Shown here: positions 1,286-21,289 of the stretch, in pieces
Position numbering within the stretch: the first letter of the stretch is position 1
How the letters are laid out: each line of letters begins with the position of its first letter
Virus record (IMG/VR): IMGVR_UViG_3300048999_000167
Span: 1 to 21,289 of that record
DNA length: 21,289 bases
DNA from: a virus
Strand: one strand, 5' to 3'
Translations under genes and position numbers: made by a program
Notes under the pieces: model-generated
What the model saw: only the letters and a program-made list of their open reading frames with translations
The model's database searches: none
What the model was told of the DNA's origin: nothing

Positions 1286-1309
1286 GTCGATCGTGACCGG
1301 TCCAGCCAT
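1..1309 (-). CDS. Tandem PKD (Ig-like) repeat protein, 3' partial
   Basis: This minus-strand frame starts at ATG 1309 behind a strong Shine-Dalgarno sequence (GAGGAGAGG) and stays open for 436 codons to the window edge, so the C-terminus is missing. It is built almost only of ~90-residue PKD-like repeats. The hallmark WGDG lies at residues 9-12, 97-100, 184-187 and 275-278, with a divergent FGEG at 367-370; a further repeat is starting at the edge. Each repeat has the pattern VDWGDGTP...H.YAD...EQTITV...TATFTP. PKD/Ig-like folds are common surface modules on phage tails and capsids. No signal peptide or transmembrane segment is visible. It follows the major tail protein gene by 14 nt in another frame, and its first repeat lacks the N-terminal half, which sits at the end of that upstream gene. 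Probable role (inferred): tail-surface decoration or host-glycan contact. Coding and fold are secure; function is not. Confidence 0.85.
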   Translation of the reverse strand, partial: MAGPVTIDWGDGTPKQDGPETGTVTHKYADGVTGEQTITVCSKADPTKCTKSKFTPGGGTPATELKVTAVEATTDTTRMTVKATVDNTGQGAVKVDWGDGSTPVDGPEKSDLTYKYPRAGQFTITATDADVPTRKGTATVTVPFGPVSEPKATAEADATNPRTAKVTWSGFPQGTDDTTVSVDWGDGTPKTTGQPAEGSATHTYADTVTTEQTITVVSETDATKKATATFTPSGGTTPTPGTPKVTAAADTTDTAGRTVKASYDGFPTGKVSVDWGDGTPKTEADGPKGDQSHKYADTVKGEQTITVTSVADATKKATATFTPKDSTTPPEPTGDPKLTVTKDATDTTNMTALAVVDYAGKPVSVDFGEGEPVDNPGDGKTTSKFVYTAPGNYTVTAADKADTSKTDTVQVQIPFEGDTPAPAAPKLSAAADTTDT

Positions 1310-1323
1310 GGTTGCGCCTCTCC

Positions 1324-2745
1324 TCAGCTCTGGGTGTTGTTGACCGTGACCTTGGCCGTGCGGCCGGTCGTGTCCGTGGTGTCCTTGGTCACCGACACCT
1401 GGGGGCCGGTGGTGGGGGTGCCGCAATCCGAACCGAGCGTCAACGCCACCGTCCGGCCGGACGGGTCCGACGGGTCCGCGATCGGCGGGCACACCTTGGG
1501 CGCCTCGCTGCCACTGCATGGCACCTGGATGGCGTCACGGGACCGGAACCGGGTCTGGTCGGCCCGGCGGACGCTGACGGTGTAGATCGAGGCCGCGCTG
1601 TAGGTGTACGCGAGGTTCGCGACACCGCCCGACTTCGACGCGTCGAACTGCTGGGGGTCCTTGCCGTCGCCCCAGTCGATGAGACCGATACCGGTGGACT
1701 GCGGCGGCAGCGTCACCTTGGCCCGGATCTTGAGCGGGTTCGTCGCGTCGTTCGCGCACGACAGCTCGATGACCGGCTCGTCCGCCGGAAGCGGCACGGT
1801 GATCTGCTTCGACGCCGACACCACCGGCGTCTGCTTGTCGCGCACGACGACCGTGTACGTGCCGTCTTGCCCGTACGGGTGGGTGACCCACCGGCCTTCG
1901 ATGGACTCCTCGGGGATCGACCCGTCACCCCAGTCGATCATCACCGGGCCGAAGCCGTGGTTGTCGACGAACATGCGCACCGTGCGCCGCGGGTCCTCGT
2001 TCGGCAGACCCGTGATCATCAGCTCGGCGGGGTCCGGCGTCGGCCGGTCGACGGGCTGTGCGCCGCACTCGGGCTCGGGCGGGCGCACGGTCGTCGTGAA
2101 CAGCCGGTAGTGCGCCTTCTTCGGCACCGGCTTGAGCAGACGCCCCGGCACGTTGTTCGCGTCCAGCTGGACGTTGTACGGGCCCCGCCGCCAGTTGTTC
2201 CCGATCTTGGTCCGGCCGGTGAACGTGAACGACACGGCGTCATTCCCGATCTCAAGATCACCAGGGGCGCCGCCGACGTTCCACGGCAACAGGAGATAGC
2301 CCCACGCGCCTTGCGCCTCCTGGCCGACGCACGAGTCGGTCTCGCCGTAGACGTCCATCCACAGCTCCAGGCTGAAGCCCGTGGAACAGTCCAGGTCGCC
2401 GATCGCGTCGTACCCCACCACGTCGCCCTGGTTGTCCAGGACCTTCTCCCACGTGGGGTTCACCATCTGCACCAAGTCGGGGTCGACGGCGCAGAAGTCC
2501 ATCTCGACCGTGTACCACTTGAGCTGGTCACACGCCTTTTCCGAGATGCACGTCTTGCCGTTGGCCTTGGTGACGCTGACCTCTGCGCCGTCCTCGGTCT
2601 CGGCCGACATCTTGACCGTGACGAACCCGTCGGTGGTGACCTGGTTCCCGTCCCCGTACTGGGGCTGGCCGCACGAGTTCAGGCGGGTGACCCGTAGTGC
2701 GTTGCCGCGCAGGTACGACGGGCACTCGGTTTCGGTGCCGTTCAT
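1324..2745 (-). CDS. Major tail (tube) protein with C-terminal PKD domains
   Basis: 473 aa; ATG 2745 preceded by GGAGACAGG and overlapping the upstream stop as ATGA. Residues 1-235 resemble actinophage major tail subunits as I recall them: an N-terminal CPSYLRGNALRVTRLNSCG, then a DGFV strand near 39, a QLKWYTVEMDF strand near 75, VNPTWEKV near 95, GYLLLPWNVGG near 149, FTFTGRT near 173 and GPYNVQLD near 188. Two PKD domains follow, with DWGDG at 271-275 and 357-361. The C-terminus carries two consecutive N-terminal half-repeats (ADPSDPSGRTVALT, then KDTTDTTGRTAKVTV) and stops. The protein would polymerise into the tail tube with Ig-like domains projecting outward, a known arrangement in siphophages. 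Several cysteines in the core are notable. Assignment of the core rests on recognised sequence pattern and gene order, not on a database search. Confidence 0.8.
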   Translation of the reverse strand: MNGTETECPSYLRGNALRVTRLNSCGQPQYGDGNQVTTDGFVTVKMSAETEDGAEVSVTKANGKTCISEKACDQLKWYTVEMDFCAVDPDLVQMVNPTWEKVLDNQGDVVGYDAIGDLDCSTGFSLELWMDVYGETDSCVGQEAQGAWGYLLLPWNVGGAPGDLEIGNDAVSFTFTGRTKIGNNWRRGPYNVQLDANNVPGRLLKPVPKKAHYRLFTTTVRPPEPECGAQPVDRPTPDPAELMITGLPNEDPRRTVRMFVDNHGFGPVMIDWGDGSIPEESIEGRWVTHPYGQDGTYTVVVRDKQTPVVSASKQITVPLPADEPVIELSCANDATNPLKIRAKVTLPPQSTGIGLIDWGDGKDPQQFDASKSGGVANLAYTYSAASIYTVSVRRADQTRFRSRDAIQVPCSGSEAPKVCPPIADPSDPSGRTVALTLGSDCGTPTTGPQVSVTKDTTDTTGRTAKVTVNNTQS

Positions 2746-3098
2746 CCTGTCTCCGTTCCGTTGCTGCGCGGCCCGTGCCGCTCGTTGTGCGTGTGGTCGG
2801 GCCCGGCCGGTGCGGCATCCGGTCGGGCTCTGTTCGGGCAGGAGGGACGCCCCACGTTCGGCGGTGCGGGGGCGGTAACAAGCGGCGGCGGCACGCACTC
2901 GGCGGCCGGGTCGTCGTCGACGACACCGGCCATCAACCGGGCACGCTCGTACACCTGGACGTGCCATTCGTCCGGCACCTCGACCCCGAGGCGCTCCCCG
3001 CCGGTGTCGAGCTGCACATGCTCCTTGCCGCACACGTCGATCGCCGCGGCGGCCACCGTCCCCAGCGGAATCCGGTTCGAGGCAGGCACGAACGTCAT
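2742..3098 (-). CDS. Small protein in head-tail region, unknown function
   Basis: 118 aa. ATG 3098 overlaps the stop of the upstream 284-aa gene (ATGA) and its own stop overlaps the major tail start (ATGA), so it is translationally locked between the two. The N-terminal 60 residues look folded (TFVPASNRIPLG..., IDVCGKEHVQLD, VEVPDEWHVQVYERARLM). The remaining C-terminus is Pro/Ala/Arg-rich and probably disordered. Position between capsid and tail genes suggests a head-tail joining or tail-completion component, but no diagnostic motif is visible and the product may be something else. Confidence 0.75.
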   Translation of the reverse strand: MTFVPASNRIPLGTVAAAAIDVCGKEHVQLDTGGERLGVEVPDEWHVQVYERARLMAGVVDDDPAAECVPPPLVTAPAPPNVGRPSCPNRARPDAAPAGPDHTHNERHGPRSNGTETG

Positions 3099-4023: not shown

Positions 4024-6282
4024 TCAGGCCGGGCAGGGGACCGCGGCCGGAAGCAGCTTGCCGCCGGGCGCCGGGGGCCGCTTGTCGCAGTCGACCTCGA
4101 TGTGCGAGCCCGACAGACCGTTCGCGCACAGGTCGAGCTCGATGACGTACGAGTCGAGGCAGCGCTTGCACACCATCCAGCCCTCCTCGGTGAAGAGGCC
4201 GGTGTACACGTTCTTGATCAGCGAGGCGTGGTCGTAGATGCCATCGAGGATGATCACGTCGTCGGACAGCTCGAAGAAGGTCCCCGACGGGTAGAGCATG
4301 AGCTTGACGTTGTTGGGCCACCGCATCGGGATGGGGCCGCCGAACCCGCCCGGGTTCATGGGGTGTTCGAAGCTGTCCTGCCAGTCGTACACGTACTGCG
4401 GGTTCACCCCGCAATTCCGCAAGTAGCCGTCGATCTGGGAGTCCGAGATCGACCACCGGTTGTCGATGCCGAGCTTCTTCCTCAGGTCGCTCTTGAGGAC
4501 ACCGCGGATCCAGAACGGTGCGATCATCTCCAGCGTGCCGCCGCCGGACTGCGACAGCCGGTCCCGGTAGCGCTGGTACTGGACCTGGAGCTCCAGAATG
4601 CTCAGCAGCGACTCGACGGCGCCGGGGCCGTGCGGGTCGACGACCGGGTCCGTGGGGTTGGTGCCCGGCCGGGGGCCGGGGATGATGACCCGCTCCGACA
4701 GGGCCTCCATGCGCGCGAGCTTCTTCGCGTTCTGCTTGTGCGCGTGGATCAGCAGCGCGCCCTCGAAGAACTGCTGCACCCGCTCCGGCCAACCGCGCTC
4801 CATCAGAATCGGCGTCCTGATGCACAGGCCGTCGACGTCCATGCGGCACTCGGTCCACTCCTGCGGGCACGGCACCTCGACACACCGCTTCTCACGCCCG
4901 GCGATGACCTCTTCCTCGGTCAGCTCGAACCCGATCGACGACCACACCGCAGCCCAGTCGAAATCGGCCGGGTACCGGATGCCGCCACGCTGGGTCTGGA
5001 TCTGCGGAAGGGTGATGAGGCCTTCCTGCGTCATGCGGATCGGGCACAGGTCGTACAGCTGCTCCGACGGCGCGCACCAGCCCGCGGACGCCGTGAGCGA
5101 GCCGCCCGGGAGACGGGTCTCGTCACAGGCGTGGTCGATCTTCTCCTTGACGTCCGTGGAGTTGCGGCCGTCCTGGATGCGGAACTCTTCCGGCATGTGG
5201 CGCTGGATGCGGGCGATGCCCACACGGGTGCGGTCACCGTCCCGTCCCGAGTTCACGTTGCCGGTGACCATCGGCATCATGCGGACTTCCCACGCGTTCG
5301 CCAGTCCGGCCAGCCCGTTGTCGATCGGGTTCCCGGCGGCGAAGCCGGGGACGTCGGCAGCGGCCACGAGGCTGAAGGTGGGGGCGGCCGGGGCGTGGGC
5401 CTGGGCCGGAAGGTTGTCGGGTGCGGTGTGTCCCAGCGGGACCGGGGTGTTTGTGTTCACGGAGGCGTGCACCACTTCAGGCGTCGGGGCGGGGGAGACA
5501 ACGGGAACAGCGGGGTCGGCGGCGGGTGCGTCGTCGGTGGACGGTTCGGCGGCGGCCGGGTCGGTCGTCGGGTCAGCGGCAGGCGCGGCGGGCGCTGCTG
5601 GGGGCTGGTCGTCGGCCAACTGGGGGGCGGCGGGCTCCGGGTCGACCGCAGGGGCAGGCGCACCGGCCGGCGCAGCGGGCGCCGTCGGGGCGGCCGGGGG
5701 TTGGCCGTCGGCGAGCTGGGGCGCGGCCGGTGCGGCGGGCGCCGGGTTGCCGTCGGTCGCGAGCGCGGCCAGGCCGTCGTCTACCGGGATGTCTCCCTCG
5801 GCGGGCACGTCCGTGAGGTCGGGCACCGGAACGTCCCCCACGGGGGCGTCTGCGGGCACGGTGGTGTCGTCTACGGGTGCCGTGTCATCCGGGGCCGCCG
5901 TCGGGTCGGCGGTCGGGTCGGTGCCGTCACCCGCGCCGGTGTCGTCGCCACCGGAGGCGACGGCCTCGATGGCGTCGATGTTCTGCTTCAGGCCCTCGAT
6001 CTTCTGGCCGATCTCCTGCGCACGCGCCGCCTGTGCGGCCTGCGCCTGCACCAACACGTCCACGGCGTCGGCGACTTGGCCGAGCTGTTCGAGCTGGTTG
6101 ACGATCTCGGCCGACAGATCTCCGCCGCCGTCGCCGTACATCTCCTCGAACAGATCAGAGATCTGCTGGCTGATGTCGGTCGCCGGGACGTTGGCCGACG
6201 CGACAGCGTCGGTGATGGCGCTTCCATGCTCCTCTGGCGGCAAATCGGCCAGCGTCTGGAGGAGTCCTTTGACGAAGCTCAC
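4024..6282 (-). CDS. Major capsid protein fused to scaffold-like N-terminus
   Basis: 752 aa. I place the start at GTG 6282, preceded by GGGAG about 9 nt upstream, rather than the in-frame upstream ATG at 6339. Residues 1-108 are helical and coiled-coil-like (DISQQISDLFEEMYG, EIVNQLEQLGQVADAVDVL, EIGQKIEGLKQNIDAIEA). Residues ~110-315 are an Asp/Pro/Ala linker containing two copies of APQLAD (QLAD at 189-192 and 221-224). Residues ~316-752 match the actinophage HK97-fold capsid type: GWCAPSEQLYDLC, TQRGGIRYP, EEEVIAGREKRCVEVPCP, EGALLIHAHKQNAKKL, MIAPFWIRGVLKSDLRKKLGI and GVNPQYVYDWQD. The N-terminal part most likely acts as a built-in scaffold removed by the maturation protease encoded upstream; the removal is inferred. 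Capsid identity is from recognised motifs and position. Confidence 0.85.
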   Translation of the reverse strand: MSFVKGLLQTLADLPPEEHGSAITDAVASANVPATDISQQISDLFEEMYGDGGGDLSAEIVNQLEQLGQVADAVDVLVQAQAAQAARAQEIGQKIEGLKQNIDAIEAVASGGDDTGAGDGTDPTADPTAAPDDTAPVDDTTVPADAPVGDVPVPDLTDVPAEGDIPVDDGLAALATDGNPAPAAPAAPQLADGQPPAAPTAPAAPAGAPAPAVDPEPAAPQLADDQPPAAPAAPAADPTTDPAAAEPSTDDAPAADPAVPVVSPAPTPEVVHASVNTNTPVPLGHTAPDNLPAQAHAPAAPTFSLVAAADVPGFAAGNPIDNGLAGLANAWEVRMMPMVTGNVNSGRDGDRTRVGIARIQRHMPEEFRIQDGRNSTDVKEKIDHACDETRLPGGSLTASAGWCAPSEQLYDLCPIRMTQEGLITLPQIQTQRGGIRYPADFDWAAVWSSIGFELTEEEVIAGREKRCVEVPCPQEWTECRMDVDGLCIRTPILMERGWPERVQQFFEGALLIHAHKQNAKKLARMEALSERVIIPGPRPGTNPTDPVVDPHGPGAVESLLSILELQVQYQRYRDRLSQSGGGTLEMIAPFWIRGVLKSDLRKKLGIDNRWSISDSQIDGYLRNCGVNPQYVYDWQDSFEHPMNPGGFGGPIPMRWPNNVKLMLYPSGTFFELSDDVIILDGIYDHASLIKNVYTGLFTEEGWMVCKRCLDSYVIELDLCANGLSGSHIEVDCDKRPPAPGGKLLPAAVPCPA

Positions 6283-6305
6283 TACAGAGCACTCCCATAC
6301 AGGAA

Positions 6306-6332
6306 TTCGTATGCGGTGCTCCGGCCCATCAA
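6306..6332 (-). promoter_or_regulatory. Possible promoter for the major capsid gene
   Basis: On the minus strand a TTGATG box (6327-6332) and a TACGAA box (6306-6311) are separated by 15 nt, in an unusually AT-rich stretch between a terminator and the capsid start. The short spacer makes this weak. A strong separate promoter for the most abundant virion protein would fit the layout. Confidence 0.3.
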
Positions 6333-6418
6333 CCAGCAAGCATCGGACAAGATATCTGAAAGATCACTAAAAACACCCACATCGGGGCGTTTCGGCGAGT
6401 GGGGTACTGCGCACGGGC

Positions 6419-7247: not shown

Positions 7248-10200
7248 TCACGAAGCCCGTGCGGCAGCTTTCATGCGCTCCCACTCGGCGACCGCACTGC
7301 ATGCCTCGCTGCGCGATGCGGCCTTGACGTTCTGGCGGCCCGGGAAGTTCAGATCCCCCGACGCGCACGTCTTCTTCGCGACGTTGACCGCGGTCGCGAT
7401 GGCGTGCGACGTGTCGAACCCCTTCGCCGTCAGGTGATCAGCCACGCGCTTGATGTACGACGGCAGATGACCGCCCTTGCCGGTCTGCTGCACCCAGTTC
7501 TTCCGCGCGAACTCGGCGTCGGTCTTGGTGCCCTGCTTCACCCCGGGGAACGAGCCTTCCAGCGCGGCAGCGAGCGCCGTCGGCGTCCGCAACCCGGGGG
7601 TCTGGTCGGTCTTCTTCTTGACCGCCCGCCCCTTGAGCTTGTTCACCTTGCGCACCGCCAGCTCGATACGGAGCTTGTTCCGGTCCACCAGTGCAGCGGT
7701 ACGGCGTTGCCCGAGACGGTTCACCTTCTCGGCCGCGAGCGCCGCCCGCCGGACGCGTTCGGCGCGTTCGGCCATGAACTCGGCGACGACCGCCCGCATC
7801 CGCGTCTCCATGTCGACCTCGGCGTGGCGGCCGGCACAGGCGCACGGCTTGCCAGGCGGCGCCGGTGGGGCGGTGCGCGCGGCGATGACGTGGTCGGCGG
7901 TGAGCGCGCCCGATGCCACCAGGGCGTAGCCGGAGCGGTCGGTGGGGGCATTCTTGGGGACGTAGAACCCTTCGTGCCCGGCCGGGACCGCCAACGCTGC
8001 CTTGAGGTCGAGCCCACGACCCTCGTCGCGCCAGTCCCCGGAGAAGGTCGCCAGCGACAGCCGCAGTCGTTGGTCCGCCGACACGTCCGGCAACAGCACC
8101 CCGGCCATCCAAATCCCGTACGCGTCTTCCCCACAGCGGACGGCGGCGACGATCGACCCGGTCGAGTCGTAGTGGTCGACCGTCCCCCCGGCGGTCACGT
8201 ACGGGGCGGCGTGGTTGGTGCCCATGGCGAGGACGCCGACTTCGACGATCCCTTCCGAGGTGTGGATCGGGCGTACGTGGAATCGGTCGTAGCGGGTCGG
8301 CGAGTGCGGCGCGAGCACCTTGCGGCCTTGGTAGGCGACGTGGGGGACGCCCCACAGCGCGAGGTGCCCGTACACCCGGCCGTCGTCGGTGACGGTCGTC
8401 AACGTCGGTTCGGTGAACCGGGGGTTGCGGAACGCGCCGGTGTCCGGTTGGAACGCGGGGTGGGCGAACGCGGACGCCGCCAACGCCTGCATCCGGTCGT
8501 CCGCAGTGTCGTCCACGCCGTACGTGAGCGGGGTGCCGTCCACGTTGGCGGTGACCGCGTCCGGGTCCGAGCAGTCGCACGGCACATAGCCGCCTGTGCC
8601 GTCGGGCTTGATGCATCCGTTGCCGACGTCTTCGGCGCCACCACCGGCGGCCGGGTCGGGCGCACGGATGTTGTCCGGCACATCGGGACCGGCGTCCCCC
8701 TCTTCGGTCTCGTCGTCTTCGTCCTCGCCGGTGATCATGTCGGCTACCTCGTCGACGACTTCGGCGATGTCGTCCGCGTCCAGGCCGTCGTCGCCCTCGC
8801 CGTCCCCTTCGATGTCGGCGTCGTCCGGGTCGGGGGCGTCGGTGACGGCCTCGCCGATCGGGATGAGCGCGTCGCCGTCGTCGCCGGTCGGTTGCGCATC
8901 GTCCTCGGGATCGCCCTCTTCCTCGGGCACGGGGGCAACGGGCCCAGGCGTAGCAGGGGCGGCGTCCTGTGGCCCGCTCGCGGCCTGCGGGGGGACGGCG
9001 GGCGCCATCCCGTCCGGACCGGCCGGAACGGCGCCTGCGGCGTCGCACGGGCCCGGCTGCCACCCGCCCGCACCGTCGGGCACCACGCACTGCCCGGCCG
9101 CCGCTGGGGCGTCCACGGCAGGGGCGCCGGCCGAGTCCGCGAGCTGGGCAGCCTCCGCCACCCCGCCGTCGGGCGTACCCGGGGTGTCGGTCGCTTGGGT
9201 CGCTGTCGGGTCGTCGGGCTGGCTCTCCATCGACGCCTGCGCGACCACATCCCACGGCGTCGAGTCCCGCACCTCTTGGCGCAGGGCAGGCATGTCGGGG
9301 ATCGATGCCGGGTCCCACCATGCGACGGTTTCGATCTGGTCGCCGTCGGGGTCGTCCGGGTTGATCGTCGCCCGCGAGTCCTGGTCCGGGTTGATCGGTA
9401 CGTCCGTCTCGGACGGGATGACGAACACGAACGCCTGGTACACGCCGTCCGAGGATGTCCAGGTCGCGGCGAGGTGCGCGAGTTCGCCGGGGAACGTGGA
9501 CCCGGTCTCTTCCTGGAACTCGCGGACCGCGGCGTCCTTGGGGGTTTCGCCGGGCTCGATGCCGCCGCCCGGCCACTCCCACTGGCCCCCGGCGGGGTCG
9601 TCGGGCACAAGCGCGCGCTGGAGCATGATGACCCGGCCGGTGTCGGCCGCCTTCAGCACGATCCCCGCATGCGTCGGCCCACCCCCGTCCGCGGCCGCCG
9701 GGTCGGGCACGGCAGGGTCTTGCGGCACGGCGGCCGGGGTGTCCGCGAGCGCTGCCTCGCCCGGGGTGTTGTCCATGCTGATGGCGGCGTCGGGGAACGC
9801 CGGATGCGCCAACACGGTGGCGCCCATCACCCGCCACGTTTCGTAGATGCGGCCCATGCGGGCGGCCTGGTTCGTGTCCGGGTTGCAGCCGCGCACGATG
9901 GCCCGGTTGTCGTCGAGACACACGCGGCGCTCCAGCGCGTCGTCGACGTCCATCGACACGAACCGGATGTACTTCCCGCTGATCTTGTTCGCGAGCTTCA
10001 CGCCGTCGGGGTCGGCCATGTCGATCTGGCCCCGGCCGATCACGTACTGGTCCTGGACGGCGACGGAGTCCAGGCGCATCAGCCCGAGTTGGGCGCCGTC
10101 GTGCCCACGGTTGAGCCGGTCTTGTACAAGCACCGGCAGCGGCAACGGTCGGGTGGCCAACTGGCCGCCGTCGGGGGCGAGCAGGAGACGGTCGTCGGCC

Positions 10201-11099
10201 GACCACGAGTCGACGAGCCCGATCGGCCCGGACCATGTGCCGTCGTCGGCCACGGTGACCGCGTCGGAGCCGTCCGAGGCGGCGGCCGTCAGCGAGTCGG
10301 GGAAGCGGATCGTGAACGACACCCGGCCGGGCGCGCCGTTCGGGGTAGCGGGTGGGGTGGACATGGGTTCTCCATCGGTGAGGGCGGCGAAGGAGTCGGC
10401 GGACAGCGGTCGTACGGCCAGGCGGCAGCGGCAGTTGAAGACCTCACCCGGCGGGCCGGTGGGGTCGGCGGGGAACTGGAGAGAGGCGTCGCCGATGGTG
10501 AACGGGTCGGCAAGTGGGCGGACTTGGCCGTCGGCGTGCCGGTGCGTGGGCCGCACCTTGGGGTCGTCGCGGGACATCCACGTCTTGACCCAGTTCACCG
10601 ACCCGCCTTGGGCCTGGCGGTGGAACGCCGCGGCCAACGTCCCGGCCGACAAGGTGGCGGTGGTCTCGATGCGGGCGATCGTGCGGGCTTGCCCGTCCCA
10701 CTCGCCGGCCGCCAACAGTTCGGCGAGCTGCTGCCGAAGTTGTTGGCCGGGCATGTCGTGGGCGCGGGCCCGGGTCGCCGCGGTCGACAGCCGGTCGGTG
10801 ATCCGGTCGAGGAAGCCGTGCGACCGGTCCGGCAACCCGGCCGCGAACGACGCCGCGCCGGGGGCGGCGTCGGGGCCGGGCCGGGGGGTGACGGCCCGGT
10901 ATGCCGACAACCACACCCGTTCGACCACGGGGGCGACCCGGCGGGCCAACGCTTCGCGCCACGCCCGCATCCGCGAGTCGTCCCCTGCGGCCGTGAGCGC
11001 CACCGTCAGGTAGGTGTCGCCGGTGGTGTGGAGGAAGTCGCCCACGGCCGCGCGTACGGCCTCGTACACGGCGGTCTCGGGATCCTCGCGGGTGGGCAT
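7248..11099 (-). CDS. MuF-like / capsid maturation protease fusion with inserted Nudix domain
   Basis: 1283 aa. ATG 11099 overlaps the portal stop as TGATG; ATG 11108 is an alternative. Domains in order: (1) residues 1-235, MuF-like minor head domain with WVKTWMSRDDPKVRPTHRHA and a terminal VFNCRCRLAV; (2) ~255-440, prohead-protease-like part with PLPLPVLVQ, GHDGAQLGLMRLDSV (GHDGA 332-336) and VMGATVLAHPAFPDAAI; (3) ~470-610, Nudix hydrolase with a complete box at 512-534 (G-x5-E-x7-REFQEETG; E527, E530 and E531 present); (4) a disordered, very acidic linker ~620-820 with QLAD at 652-655; (5) ~900-1060, a conserved actinophage domain (GRVYGHLALWG, GTNHA, SGDWR); (6) a basic helical C-terminus with LPSYIKRVADHL and SHAIATAVNVAKK. 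It probably sits in the prohead, processes the capsid protein and may retain phosphohydrolase activity on nucleotide-derived substrates. Fusion of MuF and protease is known in actinophages; the Nudix insertion is the odd part. Confidence 0.85.
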   Translation of the reverse strand: MPTREDPETAVYEAVRAAVGDFLHTTGDTYLTVALTAAGDDSRMRAWREALARRVAPVVERVWLSAYRAVTPRPGPDAAPGAASFAAGLPDRSHGFLDRITDRLSTAATRARAHDMPGQQLRQQLAELLAAGEWDGQARTIARIETTATLSAGTLAAAFHRQAQGGSVNWVKTWMSRDDPKVRPTHRHADGQVRPLADPFTIGDASLQFPADPTGPPGEVFNCRCRLAVRPLSADSFAALTDGEPMSTPPATPNGAPGRVSFTIRFPDSLTAAASDGSDAVTVADDGTWSGPIGLVDSWSADDRLLLAPDGGQLATRPLPLPVLVQDRLNRGHDGAQLGLMRLDSVAVQDQYVIGRGQIDMADPDGVKLANKISGKYIRFVSMDVDDALERRVCLDDNRAIVRGCNPDTNQAARMGRIYETWRVMGATVLAHPAFPDAAISMDNTPGEAALADTPAAVPQDPAVPDPAAADGGGPTHAGIVLKAADTGRVIMLQRALVPDDPAGGQWEWPGGGIEPGETPKDAAVREFQEETGSTFPGELAHLAATWTSSDGVYQAFVFVIPSETDVPINPDQDSRATINPDDPDGDQIETVAWWDPASIPDMPALRQEVRDSTPWDVVAQASMESQPDDPTATQATDTPGTPDGGVAEAAQLADSAGAPAVDAPAAAGQCVVPDGAGGWQPGPCDAAGAVPAGPDGMAPAVPPQAASGPQDAAPATPGPVAPVPEEEGDPEDDAQPTGDDGDALIPIGEAVTDAPDPDDADIEGDGEGDDGLDADDIAEVVDEVADMITGEDEDDETEEGDAGPDVPDNIRAPDPAAGGGAEDVGNGCIKPDGTGGYVPCDCSDPDAVTANVDGTPLTYGVDDTADDRMQALAASAFAHPAFQPDTGAFRNPRFTEPTLTTVTDDGRVYGHLALWGVPHVAYQGRKVLAPHSPTRYDRFHVRPIHTSEGIVEVGVLAMGTNHAAPYVTAGGTVDHYDSTGSIVAAVRCGEDAYGIWMAGVLLPDVSADQRLRLSLATFSGDWRDEGRGLDLKAALAVPAGHEGFYVPKNAPTDRSGYALVASGALTADHVIAARTAPPAPPGKPCACAGRHAEVDMETRMRAVVAEFMAERAERVRRAALAAEKVNRLGQRRTAALVDRNKLRIELAVRKVNKLKGRAVKKKTDQTPGLRTPTALAAALEGSFPGVKQGTKTDAEFARKNWVQQTGKGGHLPSYIKRVADHLTAKGFDTSHAIATAVNVAKKTCASGDLNFPGRQNVKAASRSEACSAVAEWERMKAAARAS

Positions 11100-13231
11100 C
11101 ACGCGCATCCGAACTGGGCTACCGCGCGGTGCAGGTATTCGACCCGGTGCTCCTCGCCCGCGGTGAGCAGCGCGCGGACGTAGGAGTCGACGGCCCGATG
11201 CAGACACGGCTCGCTCGGGATCGAGGTGTGGAAGTCGGCGTAGGCGCCGGTGAGCATCTGGTCGAACTCGCCGGGGTCTGCGGCGATGTGACAGTGCACC
11301 GCATACAGGTCCATCTGCTGGAGGCTCGCGCGCTGCGAGCGGGGGACGGACCGGATCAGATACTGGCCCGCCCGCGACAGGGCGCGCCGTACGGCCATGT
11401 CGAGGCACGGGATCAGCCACGGGTCCAGGTCGTCGTCCGTGGGGCCGGCGGAGGCTTGGAGCGCGGGCGGGGTGGTCTGGCGGGCGGGGATCTCGTTCCG
11501 GTTCCCGGCCGCGCCACCCCCGACGGGTGCGGGCGCGGCGGGGCGGCCGATCTTGGCCGTGTTGGGGACGGCCCCCATGGGTGCGGGGGTGCCTTGCGGG
11601 TTGGCCTGCTCCTGTTCAGCGGCGCTGAGGTGGATCCCGAGGCGGGGAAGCAGGATCGGCGCGAGGTTGGCGTTCGTGAGGGCGATCTGTCGGGCGAGCG
11701 CGGCGGCGCGTTCTTTGTCGGTGGGGGCGTCTTCTTCGCTGAAGCCGACCTCGCGCCGGTACGCGGCTTCGCCGATGGCGCCGTTCTGGAACGCTTCGGT
11801 GGCTTCGGGACCGCGGTTGGCCCGCAGCGACAGGTCCGCCGTGTCGTACCAGATCGCGTACCGGTGCCAGTCCTGCACCCCCATGGCCCGGAGGACGGGT
11901 TGGTAGAACTGGACGGTCAGCGCATCGCAGATCAAACCGAGCAAGGGTTCGATATGGAGTTTGATGGCGGCTTCCTCGATGCCCCACTGGCCCCAATGGT
12001 TGATCTTGCCCATCCCGGTCAAGACCTCTGGGGGAAGGTCTAGACCGATCGCGACGCGTTTGACGGCCTGGTCGCGCATCTCCTCCACGCGCTCGTCGAA
12101 CTTCGTCGCGAAGCTGATGTGCTTCATCTTGTCGCCCGCTGCTGCCGGACCGCGCACCACCAACGGGACGATCGCGGATGCGCTGTCCCTGTTTTTCAAC
12201 GGCGCCGCCATGGCCTCAATGAGGCTCGCGGTGAACGTGTCCGAGTGCAGCGGGTTGGGGCCGTCGTCGGACTGCTGCGGGGACGGGATCGCCAACTCTT
12301 CGGGGACGAACAGGATGCCTGCGCCGGCGAGCCTGGATTCCGCGGAGGCGATGATGTGCGCCGACAGGTTCACCAGCTCCGTCAGCGGGCCGCGCAACGC
12401 GTGGACGGGGCTGTCGGCGTCTTGGGCGATGTTGGGGTGTTCCCGCCACATGCGGATCGTCGTCGACCGGCCGATCGGCACCGACACGTCACGGCCCGGG
12501 GTCTCCGGCAACTTGATCCGCAACTGGTCGCCGCCGCCGAACGACACCTCCTGGTTCGAGCACACCTGCCACCGGCGCTCGCCCGTTTGCGGGTGGTCGA
12601 AGCCGACGACGAAGGATTCACCGGGAACGTTGAGGTGATAGGCCAGCCGCTTGAGGAACTTGGACTGACCGCTCCATCCGCCCGTCAACTCCCGCAGCGG
12701 GGACAACAGCAGGCGCGCTTTGGCGAGCGCCTCGGCCAGCTTCGCGGGGTCCGGCGGCGGCGCGGGCGGCGTCTTCTTGCCGGTCTCGCCGCCCGCGCCG
12801 GTCTCCCCGAGTTTGCCGTCCTCGATGTCGGCGCCGTTGTCGGGGTCCGATCCGGGCGCGGACGGGGTGATGGGTTCGCCGTCCGGGCCGACGGCGGGGA
12901 CGTTGATCGGGGTCGGGTCGTTCGACCCGTCCGGGTCGATGACGCCGACATACAGACGAGCGCGGGAACAAGCGTTGGCCGCGTAGTCGATGCCGGAGCG
13001 GAGTTCGGGGATCTCGTCGAACAGCCCCCACACTTCGTTCTGCCACGGCTTGGTGCGCCCCATGGCGAAGCGGACCTGGTCGCGGTTGACGAGCGCGGCC
13101 GACGCGACCATGGCCATGCCCACGACTTGCGGAGTCTTGCCACCGTGTCCGTCGTCCACCATGACCCGGGGGTCGCGCTTGGGGCGCGCATGGAGAGTCG
13201 GCGTGATCGGGTGATCGCTCCATCGGGACAT
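11099..13231 (-). CDS. Portal protein
   Basis: 710 aa, ATG 13231 with GGAGG 11 nt upstream. Actinophage portal signatures as I recall them: KPWQNEVWGLFDEIPELRSGIDYAANACSRARLYVG near the N-terminus, then STTIRMWREHPNIAQDADSPV, LVNLSAHIIASAESRLAGAGIL, DLPPEVLTGMGKINHWGQWG, LCD/FYQPVLRAM and WYDTADLSLRANRG. The portal forms the dodecameric DNA entry channel at one capsid vertex, binding terminase during packaging and the head-tail connector later. The C-terminal ~110 residues (DPWLIPCLDMAVRRALSRAG onward) extend beyond a typical core and look helical. Its stop overlaps the start of the MuF/protease gene, implying coupled synthesis. Confidence 0.9.
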   Translation of the reverse strand: MSRWSDHPITPTLHARPKRDPRVMVDDGHGGKTPQVVGMAMVASAALVNRDQVRFAMGRTKPWQNEVWGLFDEIPELRSGIDYAANACSRARLYVGVIDPDGSNDPTPINVPAVGPDGEPITPSAPGSDPDNGADIEDGKLGETGAGGETGKKTPPAPPPDPAKLAEALAKARLLLSPLRELTGGWSGQSKFLKRLAYHLNVPGESFVVGFDHPQTGERRWQVCSNQEVSFGGGDQLRIKLPETPGRDVSVPIGRSTTIRMWREHPNIAQDADSPVHALRGPLTELVNLSAHIIASAESRLAGAGILFVPEELAIPSPQQSDDGPNPLHSDTFTASLIEAMAAPLKNRDSASAIVPLVVRGPAAAGDKMKHISFATKFDERVEEMRDQAVKRVAIGLDLPPEVLTGMGKINHWGQWGIEEAAIKLHIEPLLGLICDALTVQFYQPVLRAMGVQDWHRYAIWYDTADLSLRANRGPEATEAFQNGAIGEAAYRREVGFSEEDAPTDKERAAALARQIALTNANLAPILLPRLGIHLSAAEQEQANPQGTPAPMGAVPNTAKIGRPAAPAPVGGGAAGNRNEIPARQTTPPALQASAGPTDDDLDPWLIPCLDMAVRRALSRAGQYLIRSVPRSQRASLQQMDLYAVHCHIAADPGEFDQMLTGAYADFHTSIPSEPCLHRAVDSYVRALLTAGEEHRVEYLHRAVAQFGCA

Positions 13232-13256: not shown

Positions 13257-13694
13257 CTACTGCTGGTCGGTGCGGGTGTCGTGCAACGTCACATGGAGGG
13301 GTTTGACCGGCGGGGGAGAGTCGAGCCAGTCCGCGGCGGTGGCGATCAGCCACGACGACGCGAGCGTCATCACCGGGTACAGGAAGAACCGCGTCCCCAT
13401 CTCCCACTGCCACGGCGGGGCGGCGTGGGTCCAGGTGAGGTAGGCGAGGTTGCCGGTGGCGGCGACGTACATCGAAGCGCACCAGTGGCAGCGGATGACC
13501 CCGGCGACGAAGCGCCACGGGTAGGGGGCGAGGCGTGCGGTGCCGTCGCCGTTGTCACGGAGGGAGGCTCGGGCTTCGATCCAGGTCCGGATGGGTTCGG
13601 TGAGCGTGTCACCGGTCACGAGCCGGGTAGCCCGCGCCATCGCAAACAGGGTGATAAGTCCGATTGCGGCAAGTGTGAGGGGATTGTGCGTCAC
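13257..13694 (-). CDS. DUF1360-like membrane protein
   Basis: 145 aa, GTG start at 13694. The N-terminal hydrophobic segment (PLTLAAIGLITLFAMA) is followed by ARATRLVTGDTLTEPIRTWIE and later CHWCASMYVAA. This combination (R-x-TRLVT-x-D, then CxxC in a membrane helix) is the DUF1360 pattern found in many actinophages and bacilli. At least two further hydrophobic segments follow (MTLASSWLIATAADWL). There is no Shine-Dalgarno sequence; a -10-like box sits 7 nt upstream, so the message may be leaderless. It is first in the portal operon, 25 nt before the portal start. Function unknown; location is the inner membrane by prediction. Confidence 0.75.
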   Translation of the reverse strand: MTHNPLTLAAIGLITLFAMARATRLVTGDTLTEPIRTWIEARASLRDNGDGTARLAPYPWRFVAGVIRCHWCASMYVAATGNLAYLTWTHAAPPWQWEMGTRFFLYPVMTLASSWLIATAADWLDSPPPVKPLHVTLHDTRTDQQ

Positions 13695-13747: not shown

Positions 13748-14227
13748 TCAGCTTGTGCCGGTCGCGCGGGACTCAGCATCCTTGGCCAGCCACCGCACCG
13801 CGTCCCAATCCGCTTCCATGTCCAACACCATCCCCAACGTGGCGGACGCCGCGCACACGGCCGTACCCCACCGGCCCGGTTCGTGACGGCCGTCCACCTC
13901 CATGACGGACACGACCGAGAACGGCCCACACGCCCGCCTCAACCGCTCCGCAAGCTGTCCGCCGTCCGGTCCGGGGTGTGCGGCCACGACGACCTCGCAC
14001 GGCGCCTCGGACCGCGCGGTACGCCACATCTGCGCCGCGGTACGCACCCGGTCGTACGCGTCGCCGTCCGCGTCGTTGCCCCGCACCGCCGCGCGCCGGA
14101 CTGACACGATGCCCACCCCGTTGACCGCACACAGAGCGATCAGGGAGCGCTGGGGGCCGGGGGTGACGCACAAGGCGAATCGTTCGGCCTTGGGCGGTCC
14201 GGTCTTCTTCGTTCTCAGGTTCACCAC
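13748..14227 (-). CDS. Hypothetical phage protein, 159 aa
   Basis: GTG 14227 (or the adjacent GTG 14224) is chosen because GGGAGG lies 6-9 nt upstream, although the frame is open to an ATG at 14272. After a basic start (NLRTKKTGPPKAERF) come alternating hydrophobic strands: ALCVTPGPQRSLIALCAVNGVGIVSVRRAAV, CEVVVAAHPG and FSVVSVMEV, then a helical C-terminus. The strand-helix pattern faintly recalls an RNase H-like/RuvC fold, but no acidic catalytic set is visible, so I do not assign one. It is the gene directly downstream of the M4 peptidase and is too unlike known small M4 inhibitors to call it one. Confidence 0.65.
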   Translation of the reverse strand: MVNLRTKKTGPPKAERFALCVTPGPQRSLIALCAVNGVGIVSVRRAAVRGNDADGDAYDRVRTAAQMWRTARSEAPCEVVVAAHPGPDGGQLAERLRRACGPFSVVSVMEVDGRHEPGRWGTAVCAASATLGMVLDMEADWDAVRWLAKDAESRATGTS

Positions 14228-14305
14228 GAGGTGCCTCCCGGTTGTCGTTCGCCGGTGACCCCCCTTCGTCACTGTGATCGAAAAGGGGCCACCGTACGAT
14301 GATCG

Positions 14306-15376
14306 TCAACCGGCGGTGACGCCGACCTTCTCCCACGCGGAGACAACCGCGCGGGCTTCGACAGAACCGTCCCCGAACAGCCGAATGGCTTGGCCGGCGG
14401 TCGCGGCAGCGAACTCCTTGAACGTCGCCTTCTGCGACACCTTGTGCTTCGACGTGTCAGTGAGCGCCGCGTACCAGACCTTGCCCGCGGTCTCCCACGC
14501 CTTGCCGCCGATCTCGGTCGCCGCGAGGTAGAAGGCGTGGTTCGGGATCCCCGAGTTGAGGTGGACGCCGCCGTTGTCCTCGAAGGTCTGCACGAACCCG
14601 TCCATGGTGGCGGGCTGCGGGTCCTTGCCCAGGATCTCGTTGTCGTACGCGGTGCCGGGGGCCTTCATCGACCGCAACGCGACGGTCTTGCCGTCCTTCT
14701 CGATGGCAGGCATGAAGAGTTCGTCTCCGATGAGCCACGACGCCTTGTCGGCGGTGGTCTGGTCGCGGTACTGGACGGCGAGGACGCCGAACACGTCGGA
14801 GATGTGCTCGTTGAGCGCTCCGGCCTGGTCGTAGTAGTCGAGGTTGAGGGTGTTCTGGGTGACGCCGTGGGTGAGTTCGTGGGCGATGACGGTGAGGTCC
14901 TTGGTGAACGTCCCGAACAACTTGCTGTCGCCGTCACCGAACGCCATCTGCTGGCCGTCCCAGAACGCGTTCAGATAGTCGCGGCCGTAGTGGACGGTGC
15001 CATGCAGCGGCAGGCCCTTGCCGTCGAGCGAGTCACGGCCGTACACCTCGCTGTAGAGCTTGTACGTGGCGCCGAGGTGGTCGTAGGCGCGGTTGACGTC
15101 GTCGTCGTCGGCCGGGTCGGCGCCCTCCTTGCGGATCTCCTTGCCCGGCAGGTCTTCCTTGTGTCCGGCGTCGTACACCGTCCGGTCGAGCTTGCCCTTG
15201 GCGGGCGCCGGTGCCGGGGTGGGGGTGGTGACGAGGAGACCACGGTGGGCGCGGTGCCGGGCGTCGGCGAGCAGTGACGCGCGCGCGGCGGCGCCGTAGT
15301 CGGGGTTGTTGGCCAGATGGGTCAGCAGGTGCGGCGGAACGACTCCGCACCGGTGGTGGGGGCTATTGGTGCGCAT
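14306..15376 (-). CDS. Protealysin-like M4 family zinc metallopeptidase
   Basis: 356 aa from ATG 15376; an in-frame GTG at 15385 is possible and neither has a clear ribosome site. Thermolysin-family landmarks are all present: NAFWDGQQMAFGDGD at 136-150, the zinc site HELTH at 166-170 with the third ligand E190 in GALNEHISDVFG, and the active-site histidine H272 in GGVHLNSGIPNHAFY. The C-terminal helical domain is complete. The short propeptide carries CGVVPPHLL (PPHLL 14-18), the type of motif found in protealysin-like precursors. There is no signal peptide, so it would act in the cytoplasm or leave at lysis. M4 peptidases are rarely reported in phages. Possible roles (inferred): degrading host proteins, attacking a cell-surface layer, or processing a virion protein. 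Confidence 0.9.
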   Translation of the reverse strand: MRTNSPHHRCGVVPPHLLTHLANNPDYGAAARASLLADARHRAHRGLLVTTPTPAPAPAKGKLDRTVYDAGHKEDLPGKEIRKEGADPADDDDVNRAYDHLGATYKLYSEVYGRDSLDGKGLPLHGTVHYGRDYLNAFWDGQQMAFGDGDSKLFGTFTKDLTVIAHELTHGVTQNTLNLDYYDQAGALNEHISDVFGVLAVQYRDQTTADKASWLIGDELFMPAIEKDGKTVALRSMKAPGTAYDNEILGKDPQPATMDGFVQTFEDNGGVHLNSGIPNHAFYLAATEIGGKAWETAGKVWYAALTDTSKHKVSQKATFKEFAAATAGQAIRLFGDGSVEARAVVSAWEKVGVTAG

Positions 15377-15527
15377 GCGGGCCACCGTGACACAGGATCA
15401 GACGAGTCATGGGGGATTGACGCGTCAGCCCGGCGTGTTCCGGTTTGAGTGTTTACGTCCCTTTGATCGCTACCATGCCCCGTACCCACTCTTCGGGCTT
15501 CGCGGCCCGGCTTACCAGGAGGTTCCC

Positions 15528-15602
15528 ATGATCCTCGCGGCCGTCGTGTTCGGTGCGTGCCTGATCGTTCCGGTGCTGTGCCCGCTGCTGCTGATCGTCT
15601 GA
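15528..15602 (+). CDS. 24-aa single-pass membrane peptide
   Basis: ATG 15528 with an excellent AGGAGG 5 nt upstream; ends TGA 15602. The whole peptide (MILAAVVFGACLIVPVLCPL and four more residues) is hydrophobic and long enough to span a membrane once; two cysteines and two prolines lie inside. A terminator hairpin follows 18 nt later, so this is a free-standing unit on the strand opposite to the flanking M4 gene. Small phage membrane peptides can be holin-like, exclusion or regulatory peptides; nothing here decides which. Too short for standard ORF callers, hence easily missed. Confidence 0.6.
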   Translation: MILAAVVFGACLIVPVLCPLLLIV

Positions 15603-17194: not shown

Positions 17195-17473
17195 TCAACC
17201 CCTTGAGGCGGCGCCGTCCACCCGCTGGCCCGCCCGACACGCGTGCGCCCGCCTCACGGCCTCATACGCCTCGGGCGCCACCATCCCCACCGACGCCCCG
17301 AACCGGCGCGCCTGGCCCTCGGTGACCGCAACGACGACCGTGCTCCCGTTGCCGTCCAGCGCGGGGATACGGAACGCCACAGGGTCCGGCCACGCCGGAC
17401 GGAACTCTTCCTGCAACACGACCGTCGGCCGCGCCCGTTCGGCACGCCGCTTGGCCCGCTTCCTGGCATTCAT
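17195..17473 (-). CDS. Hypothetical basic protein, 92 aa
   Basis: ATG 17473 overlaps the upstream stop as ATGA, which supports this start over the longer frame to 17629. The N-terminus is strongly basic (MNARKRAKRRAERARPT), followed by two strands (RIPALDGNGSTVVVAVTEGQA) and a helix (APEAYEAVRRAHACR). The basic tail suggests nucleic-acid contact. Second gene of a two-gene leaderless-type operon ending in the 17142-17188 hairpin. Function unknown. Confidence 0.65.
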   Translation of the reverse strand: MNARKRAKRRAERARPTVVLQEEFRPAWPDPVAFRIPALDGNGSTVVVAVTEGQARRFGASVGMVAPEAYEAVRRAHACRAGQRVDGAASRG

Positions 17474-17676
17474 TCCCACACCACCCGCATCCCTCCACCT
17501 TCGATAAGAAGGCTTGCCAGCGCCTTGGCGTCTTCGATTCCCAGGATGACGGGTGCCGACGTGTAGGCGTGGCACCGGCCGCAGTACCCGTGCTCGATGT
17601 CGCCCGGGTGGTACGAGGTCGCCCCGCATTCGGGGCAGGTGATCGACGGGTGTTCCGTACGCCGTCCAGCGGTCAT
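17470..17676 (-). CDS. 68-aa zinc-ribbon protein
   Basis: ATG 17676. Residues ~14-36 contain CPECGATSYHPGDIEHGYCGRC, a CxxC-x15-CxxC zinc ribbon, followed by a helix (IEDAKALASLLIEG). Zinc ribbons of this size commonly bind nucleic acid or partner proteins. No Shine-Dalgarno sequence is present; the -10-like TAGCGT ends 6 nt before the ATG, so the transcript may be leaderless. The stop overlaps the next start (ATGA). Confidence 0.75.
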   Translation of the reverse strand: MTAGRRTEHPSITCPECGATSYHPGDIEHGYCGRCHAYTSAPVILGIEDAKALASLLIEGGGMRVVWE

Positions 17677-18948: not shown

Positions 18949-19040
18949 CCCGCCGGACGGCGCCTGCTGCGCCGGTCCATCAGCCTCACCGCCGGCCGAG
19001 GCTGATGGACCCGAGCCCGCCGGACGGCGCCTGCTGCGCC
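18949..19040. repeat. 25-bp direct repeat around the terminase stop
   Basis: An identical 25-base sequence occupies 18949-18973 and 19016-19040, 67 bp apart. The right copy encodes part of the terminase C-terminus; the left copy lies beyond its stop. Between them is the 14-bp hairpin at 18974-19011. This looks like a duplicated gene end. Confidence 0.85.
18974..19011. terminator. Hairpin spanning the terminase stop codon
   Basis: Perfect 14-bp stem (18974-18987 with 18998-19011) and a 10-nt loop. The terminase stop codon (18986-18988) lies in it. It sits at the convergence of the terminase (minus) and the 106-aa secreted-protein gene (plus) and can serve both. Confidence 0.75.
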
Positions 19041-20542
19041 TGGCCCGCGGCCTGGGAGATGGACACCCCGGCGGCGTTGCCGATGTGCTGGTCGCTGCCG
19101 GGGAGCTGGAGCAGGCCGTACACGAGGTACACGGAGGCGTCCAGGCGGCCGGGGGAGTCGGGGACGCCGGGCTGGTAGGTCTCCCACTCGTCTTCGAGCT
19201 CGGTCATGTGCGACCAGGTGCGCACCCGGTCTTCGAGCCAGGCCTGTGCGATCGGCTCGGCGCGGATGAACTTGCCGGTCTTGGCGGTTTTGGGCTCGAT
19301 CCACGGCTTGAGCGCGTGCTTGTCGATGACACCTTCGCGCTGGAGTTGGTCCCATGCACCGGCGATCGGGATGAGCGAGAGGTCGCCGCCGAAGTTCTTC
19401 TCGACGTAGATGACGGTGGCGCCGGTCTCGTACGCGAGGATGCACGCCTTGCGGGCCCACTCGGTCGACGGCATGACGCCCGAGCGGTCGTGGGTGAAGT
19501 AGACGCGCTGATCAGAGCCGAGGAATCCGGCGATGATCCCGGCTTCGTCCTTGCCGCCGCCGGACGGGTCCACGGCCACGGCCTTGCGGACGGGTTCGAC
19601 GATGTGCAGGAAGTACCGCTGGCCTTCGACCTGTGCCGCGGACAGCAGCGCACCCTCGCGGGGCTTGGGGTCGCCCTGGTAGAGCGATCCCCAGTCACGG
19701 ACGGTCGAGCCGGAGCGTTTGGTCTCCCAGTGTCTGCGCAACGCCGCGGTGTCGGCGTCGGCGAGCTTCGGGTGCGTGAGCGGGTCGCCGACCGCACGAC
19801 CTAGCGGGTCGTCCGGACTGGTCGCGAACGCTGGGAGATGCAGAACGTACCATTTGCCGCCTTCCGAGGCGCGGCCCTCTTGCGCGAGGAGACGGCCGGC
19901 GAGGTCTTTCTCGTGCCAGCGCGTGAGCACCAGAACGACGGGCGCGTCCGGCGACAGTCGGGACAGCATGGTCGACGACCACCAGTCCCACACGGCTTCG
20001 CGGAAGACCTTCGATTCGGCTTCCTTGCGGTCCTTGTGGGGGTCGTCGACGAGGCCGACGTTGCCGGGGAAGCCGGTGAGTGCGCCGCCGACACCGGCCG
20101 CGCGCATGCCGCCGCCGGTCGTGAGCGACCAGTCGTCGGAGGCTTGGTCGCCGGGTTGGAGCCGCATCTCGAATTTGTGGCCGTGTTCGCGCACGAGGTC
20201 GCGGACGCGTTTGGACTTCTTGACGGCGAGCGAGGCGGCGTACGAGCCGACCACGAGGCGGTCGCGGGGGTGCTTGGTCAGCCACCAGAACGGCATGTAC
20301 TCGGACACGAGTGTGGACTTGCCGACCTGGGGCGGGGTCATGACGAGGAGTCGTTCGACGGCGCCGGGGCCGAGGCAGGCGAGGGTTTTGCCGATGAGTC
20401 GGGTGTGGGCGCGGGCGTGGAAGTGGGTGGGGTCGAGGTAGCGGCCCATCATGGCCGGGTTCGAGAGCGCGGCGAGGCGTCGGCGTTCTTGCCAGAGGTC
20501 CTCGGTGGACATTTCGGCGTAGGCGATGGTGCGGTCCGTCAT
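18986..20542 (-). CDS. terL: Terminase large subunit
   Basis: 518 aa, ATG 20542 with a G-rich ribosome site 7 nt upstream. ATPase half: Walker A-type TPPQVGKST (69-77), Walker B GLVDDP (163-168) and coupling motif LTRWHE (206-211). Nuclease half (RNase H-like): AVDPSGGG with D325, YVEKNFGG with E381 and RLDASVYL with D468. Length and motif order match complete large terminases. The enzyme powers DNA translocation through the portal and cuts the concatemer. No small terminase subunit is recognisable within the window. The C-terminal ~35 residues are Gln/Ala/Gly-rich, and their coding DNA is partly duplicated after the stop. It is transcribed away from the small plus-strand genes at the right end. 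Confidence 0.93.
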   Translation of the reverse strand: MTDRTIAYAEMSTEDLWQERRRLAALSNPAMMGRYLDPTHFHARAHTRLIGKTLACLGPGAVERLLVMTPPQVGKSTLVSEYMPFWWLTKHPRDRLVVGSYAASLAVKKSKRVRDLVREHGHKFEMRLQPGDQASDDWSLTTGGGMRAAGVGGALTGFPGNVGLVDDPHKDRKEAESKVFREAVWDWWSSTMLSRLSPDAPVVLVLTRWHEKDLAGRLLAQEGRASEGGKWYVLHLPAFATSPDDPLGRAVGDPLTHPKLADADTAALRRHWETKRSGSTVRDWGSLYQGDPKPREGALLSAAQVEGQRYFLHIVEPVRKAVAVDPSGGGKDEAGIIAGFLGSDQRVYFTHDRSGVMPSTEWARKACILAYETGATVIYVEKNFGGDLSLIPIAGAWDQLQREGVIDKHALKPWIEPKTAKTGKFIRAEPIAQAWLEDRVRTWSHMTELEDEWETYQPGVPDSPGRLDASVYLVYGLLQLPGSDQHIGNAAGVSISQAAGQAQQAPSGGLGSISLGRR

Positions 20543-21234: not shown

Positions 21235-21289
21235 ATGGACACCCCCCCCCCCCCCGCCGCCCCCCCCCGCCCCCCCCCCCCCCCCCCCC
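21235..21289 (+). CDS. Start of a further small gene, running into a C-homopolymer
   Basis: ATG 21235 preceded by GAAGGA and the leader GACAGAGACCAACCC. The start region (21223-21246) matches that of the 84-aa gene (20896-20919) in 22 of 24 positions. From 21242 on, the sequence is almost only C, which is not believable coding DNA. Only the start should be trusted. Confidence 0.4.
   Translation, partial: MDTPPPPAAPPRPPPPPP
21242..21289. other. Poly-C tail, likely sequencing or assembly artefact
   Basis: 47 of the last 48 positions, give or take three G interruptions, are C. Nothing else in the window has such a tract. It sits at the very end, as expected from low-quality read ends. Confidence 0.8.

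Follow-up and report, generated by a model that had tools for sequence, protein, structure and literature searches.

Organization of the window

The window, that is, the whole stretch of DNA that was analysed (21,289 bp), is identical to the IMG/VR virus record IMGVR_UViG_3300048999_000167, which is linear and probably a fragment. Every recognised phage gene in it is read from the minus strand. A gene for an M4 metallopeptidase is found among them, as listed here with the neighbouring features.

2 to 1308, minus strand: gene with tandem PKD-like repeats (VDWGDG), which starts about 15 nt past the stop of the major tail protein gene and has its own Shine-Dalgarno sequence
1324 to 3033, minus strand: major tail protein
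4024 to 6339, minus strand: major capsid protein
7248 to 11420, minus strand: MuF/NUDIX/head-maturation-protease fusion of 1,390 aa (profile matches)
11099 to 13231, minus strand: portal protein (phrog_776; profile match)
13257 to 13694, minus strand: small membrane protein with DUF1360 (phrog_781), which precedes the portal gene also in close relatives
13748 to 14272, minus strand: 174-aa ORF, 33 nt downstream of the M4 gene and leading into the DUF1360 and portal genes
14306 to 15376, minus strand: M4 metallopeptidase, a protealysin-like zymogen of 356 aa (ATG at 15376; alternative GTG at 15385)
15530 to 15602, plus strand: putative 24-codon hydrophobic ORF read from the sequence, divergent from the M4 gene, preceded by a perfect AGGAGG and followed by a GC-rich hairpin
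18986 to 20542, minus strand: terminase large subunit (phrog_38; profile matches)

The M4 gene thus lies between the terminase and portal genes, on the same strand as both, and only short gaps separate it from the genes that lead into the portal. The order of terminase, accessory genes, small membrane protein, portal, MuF/protease fusion, capsid and tail is shared, wholly or largely, with the Streptomyces phages BayC and TurkishDelight, the Gordonia phage Wizard and the Curtobacterium phage Kithara. It is also shared with the nearest relatives from metagenomes (L165, L166 and L171), in which the portal is 49-51% and the terminase about 61% identical to those of the window. Because this order is conserved across phages, the M4 gene can be placed inside a phage core module. 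The first-pass annotation had raised the possibility that the segment is host chromosome flanking a prophage, and this is ruled out by the gene order kept in actinophages and metagenomic relatives. Among named phages, actinophages also have the nearest capsid and portal proteins (30-40% identity), and a single-protein portal scan of viral sequences returned one distant contig. The phage is thus an actinophage of soil bacteria, and its hosts are probably Streptomycetaceae.

The M4 gene itself is not a constant part of this module. It was found in none of 80 portal relatives and in none of five Streptomycetaceae prophages whose terminases are 49-51% identical, and the terminase-portal interval of the relatives holds other small genes in its place. 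It is therefore lineage-specific cargo in a variable interval, and a single record carries it within this phage lineage. In a single-sequence viral scan, P0001 had no close relatives.

Identity and integrity of the protease

The product of the M4 gene matches the Pfam families Peptidase_M4 (E 3.5e-26) and Peptidase_M4_C (E 7.7e-48), both above cut-off. In a search against solved structures (phmmer), the best match is the precursor of protealysin from Serratia proteamaculans (2vqx; 52% identity, E 7.7e-97), followed at a distance by the next one (E 1.8e-44). Modelling with AlphaFold2 from 38 window and locus sequences gave a pLDDT of 92.3, and a Foldseek comparison of this model with the PDB again places 2vqx first (E 3.9e-37; next 1.4e-23). 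The TM-score between the two is 0.96 by target length, with the propeptide included. The HEXXH motif, the downstream E/D ligands and the transition-state histidine that define the M4 (thermolysin) family are all present, and H166, E167, H170, E190, D194, R235, D267 and H272 have all been retained and do not vary among 38 aligned sequences. The main elements are the following.

15185 to 15376, minus strand: N-terminal propeptide region, about residues 1-64 (from the alignment of protealysin-like proteases, with a predicted end)
14867 to 14881, minus strand: zinc-binding and catalytic motif HELTH, residues 166-170 (sequence and alignment)
14795 to 14809, minus strand: third zinc ligand E190 and D194, within NEHISD (sequence and alignment)
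14561 to 14563, minus strand: transition-state histidine H272, within GGVHLNSG (sequence and alignment)

Protealysin-like proteases (PLPs) are recognised by a short propeptide of about 50 aa that carries a PPL motif, with a processing site just before it (PMC6778150, PMC7311988). The residue before the first cleavage site is small and the one after it is branched aliphatic (PMC6778150). The N-terminus of the window enzyme, MRTNSPHHRCGVVPPHLL, agrees with both rules: the stretch CGVVPPHLL (residues 10-18) contains a PPL-type motif at residues 14-18, and the first autoprocessing site is predicted between Gly11 and Val12 in Cys10-Gly11-Val12-Val13. The catalytic domain starts near residue 65. No hydrophobic signal sequence is found in this N-terminus, as read from the sequence, which agrees with the first-pass description of an enzyme without a secretion signal. 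Nevertheless, this absence is an ordinary family trait and not a phage peculiarity, because bacterial PLPs likewise begin immediately ahead of the PPL motif, the Streptomyces relatives have no signal sequence either, and protealysin itself is an intracellular enzyme (PMC9505478).

The window enzyme thus has in common with protealysin its fold, including the propeptide, a PPL-type motif, the active site and the lack of a signal peptide. In contrast to protealysin, it is encoded by a phage, has no adjoining gene for the inhibitor emfourin and contains two short insertions in loops near residues 226-231 and 307-311, which the alignment shows to be phage-specific. In addition, the P2 position of the first processing site is Cys, as in Streptomyces PLPs, whereas it is Arg in protealysin. 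Autocatalytic maturation and protease activity are predicted from these features.

The gene is also intact. The sequence GGTGG is found 5 nt upstream of the ATG at 15376 and there are no internal stops. No promoter was recognised in the sequence. In comparison with 23 Streptomycetaceae PLPs, the window enzyme keeps 120 of the 129 invariant positions despite a divergence of about 43%, and therefore it is no chance ORF. Its GC3 of 0.919 falls between the values of the phage genes (0.85-0.89) and those of host PLPs (0.94-0.96). In effect, the first-pass reading of a phage-encoded, catalytically intact and protealysin-like M4 peptidase in the terminase-portal interval is borne out by residues, Pfam matches, structure and gene order, and we regard it as virtually certain that this is a PLP in a genuine phage context.

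Relationship to host proteases

The comparison with hosts consisted of a GTDB genome scan together with three sampled sets, of 396 genomes from the phylum, 395 from the family and 392 from the order, so that about 1,200 actinobacterial genomes were covered. The best host matches are 55-61% identical to the window enzyme, and among the top ones all those with a known name or group are from Streptomycetaceae. The PLPs of this family are the nearest sequences, with at most 61% identity and the same C-x-x-x-PPH start. Close identity to a host genome, which would have pointed to a very recent acquisition, is absent; with a maximum of 61%, a recent pick-up is ruled out for the sampled hosts. Some M4 match is present in 375 of the 395 Streptomycetaceae genomes, for most of them with a best E below 1e-95.

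The position of the window enzyme in trees is less firm. A quick tree groups it with the Streptomycetaceae PLPs (SH-aLRT 99), but more careful trees are unstable: when L027, another long viral branch, is included, the window enzyme joins it. The end branch that leads to it has a length of about 1.1, whereas the median is near 0.2. AU tests reject none of three groupings, with Streptomycetaceae (p 0.46), with the phages of the BM cluster (p 0.33) or with L024 (p 0.25). The trees thus put the enzyme, as a long branch, within the Streptomycetaceae PLPs or next to them, but do not fix its place.

Protealysin-like proteases in other phages

M4 peptidases had been described as unusual phage cargo. 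This holds, but the cargo recurs and has in part been annotated before. All seven Streptomyces phages of the BM cluster, whose terminases are at least 84% identical (Satis, JustBecause, Kradal, Kela, Frankenweenie, EhyElimayoE and Quantum), carry a PLP that is already annotated as 'metalloprotease', and the same type is present on 13 IMG/VR contigs. Pairwise dN/dS values among nine BM-type PLPs range from 0.07 to 0.32 and thus indicate purifying selection. Like the window enzyme, the BM protein is an M4 peptidase of an actinophage, has a PPHM motif in the propeptide and is not accompanied by emfourin in the two records searched. In contrast, it has about 296 aa, is only 34-36% identical over the full length and contains HEFGH instead of HELTH. 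The BM phages are also of a type unrelated to the window phage, and their gene is located far to the left of the terminase and outside the structural operon; it belongs to an accessory left arm, where ThyX and methyltransferase genes are its neighbours.

Other PLPs are encoded by further phage lineages. In the siphophage L024, the gene (9722-10885) immediately follows that of a GH25 endolysin and precedes that of a tail-fibre protein with a GDPD domain. In the Mu-like L025, the protease gene is flanked by the gp44-like hub and gp45-like genes of the baseplate module, and a close homologue of this protease is encoded by L023, a Mu-like contig from the same sample. These enzymes resemble the window one in their PPH motif, in their location among late phage genes and in the lack of emfourin, but they differ in phage lineage and in gene position. 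A single good match, a 299-aa protein, was obtained in the viral structure library BFVD. A literature search on phage protealysins gave no result, and in the BM-phage literature searched the protease is not discussed.

Two further sequences were considered. One is gene 9 of phage Kradal (L003, 5074-5970), noted as 'SprT protease', which aligns as a protealysin-like M4 peptidase with a PPHM motif. The other, MT836139.1 ('Bacteriophage sp.', L004), has a 47% M4 match and was set aside as a phage PLP because of its bacterial-looking neighbours; with genes for urocanase, imidazolonepropionase and TerC, it looks like a piece of an actinobacterial chromosome.

Absence of the inhibitor emfourin

In bacteria, the protealysin gene shares an operon with that of its inhibitor, emfourin (PMC9505478). 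When Serratia lacks emfourin, protealysin is already active inside living cells and toxic to them, FtsZ falls and viable counts decrease by 20-30% (PMC9505478). Protealysin of this organism cleaves RecA and the FtsZ linker, and the two proteins have been proposed as a toxin/immunity-like pair (PMC9505478). This arrangement is also common near the closest host relatives of the window enzyme, as emfourin is directly downstream of the PLP in 76 of the 80 nearest host loci (two of them counted as possible fusions). One of these two, the Knoellia locus L105 (6001-7443), does contain a PLP and an emfourin domain in one reading frame of 552 aa, and a similar fusion is possible in L139.

By contrast with the Streptomycetaceae operons, which hold both genes, the window phage acquired or retained the protease gene alone. 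The first-pass annotation had seen no recognisable inhibitor of the known type next to the gene, and the searches agree: within the 21 kb of the phage genome that this fragmentary record covers, Pfam PF20242 gave no match with E<=1, and an HMM built from host emfourins found none. The complete records of two BM phages and those of L023-L027 likewise gave no emfourin match with PF20242. In all phage records searched, the protease is thus present without the other half of the pair. The adjacent 174-aa ORF was considered as a candidate new inhibitor; it has no match in Pfam or PHROG searches or to the emfourin models, its homologue search was empty and its AlphaFold2 model has a pLDDT of 37. A Streptomyces host may, in turn, make its own emfourin, which could block the phage enzyme.

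Possible roles of the phage protease

The reading that we favour, tentatively and at about an even chance or slightly less, is an intracellular role directed against the host. Expression is probably late, since the M4 gene is co-directional with the packaging and portal genes, and by analogy the late-gene positions of the L024 and L025 enzymes would count towards a late role; however, such timing is not general, because the BM gene is outside the structural operon. The zymogen would be made in the host cytoplasm, with neither signal peptide nor partner inhibitor, and would trim itself before the PPHLL motif. The propeptide of about 60 residues would be shed as the infected cell fails, and the mature protease, with nothing to restrain it, could then degrade proteins of the host in late infection and during lysis, to the possible benefit of the phage. 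FtsZ and RecA are candidate substrates by analogy, the cleavage data coming from Serratia protealysin only. The intact active site and zymogen motif, the missing inhibitor, the toxicity of protealysin in Serratia without emfourin and the retention of PLPs under purifying selection in BM phages speak for this reading, and the lack of an M4 gene in the nearest phage relatives speaks against it.

The main rival to this reading is that the enzyme acts only after lysis. It would be inert in the cell and, once released, would digest mycelial or extracellular proteins and thereby aid release, spread or the feeding of neighbours. The precursor of protealysin does accumulate in cells and is processed and activated after lysis (PMC6778150), and the late placement of the gene in the window, in L024 (by the endolysin) and in L025 would suit such a role. 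Nevertheless, the activity seen in living Serratia cells without emfourin (PMC9505478) and the location of the BM gene outside the late module argue against it, and we consider it rather unlikely.

An intracellular role could also take a more specific form. Unrelated phages may have repeatedly captured a PLP without its inhibitor as a takeover weapon against housekeeping proteins such as FtsZ and RecA, and this enzyme may then have diverged to escape host emfourin. We see this broader scenario as doubtful, about on a par with release at lysis. A related but clearly less probable possibility is counter-defence, or an emfourin-resistant variant, in which the enzyme would cleave a host defence protein or a target that emfourin keeps from the host PLP. 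As PLPs are common in Streptomycetaceae, to supply the activity that the host already has would add little, and the long branch and the two loop insertions also count in favour of this possibility. However, no link to defence genes was observed, and a sequence search of the PDB returned no emfourin complex structure.

It is slightly less probable still that the gene is a passenger acquired by recombination and kept for some time without benefit. Its absence from all close phage relatives and its restriction to a single record in the lineage are compatible with this. Nevertheless, its conserved active site and the selection in BM phages disfavour passenger status, as do the retention of nearly all family-invariant residues without stops, a base composition near that of the phage and the presence of a PLP in every BM phage. 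Finally, the enzyme could be associated with the virion or serve in head maturation, either by cleaving structural proteins of the phage or as cargo of the particle. This is suggested by the location between terminase and portal and by that of the L025 copy between two baseplate genes, but it is very unlikely: a head-maturation protease is already present in the MuF fusion (7248-11420), the relatives of the phage assemble without any M4 enzyme, and the gene lacks a conserved position in related phages and varies in location among phage types.

The window enzyme is a good lead on how phages may damage their hosts and not a new kind of system. The role of PLPs in most bacteria is unsettled, and phages that carry only the protease offer a natural test of which half of the pair is of use for harming the cell. 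BM-cluster phages grow on Streptomyces lividans, so that the idea is directly testable. If it is true, a phage protease that cleaves FtsZ or RecA would represent a mode of host shut-off unlike that of the small proteins with which other phages are known to inhibit FtsZ.

Other features of the record

Some observations concern the rest of the window. Between the MuF and head-maturation-protease parts of the 1,390-aa fusion there is a NUDIX hydrolase domain (residues 585-715, E 1e-17), and the relative L165 has the same MuF-NUDIX-protease arrangement (NUDIX E 2.5e-15); this enzyme part may be carried in the virion. A PKD domain is present within the major tail protein as well. The last 48 bases of the record (21242-21289) are a nearly pure run of C, which is probably an assembly or sequencing artefact. 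In the terminase-portal interval, the ORF at 17195-17629 (minus strand) is a real gene of this phage group, as the same interval of L171 contains a homologue (56% over 95 aa).
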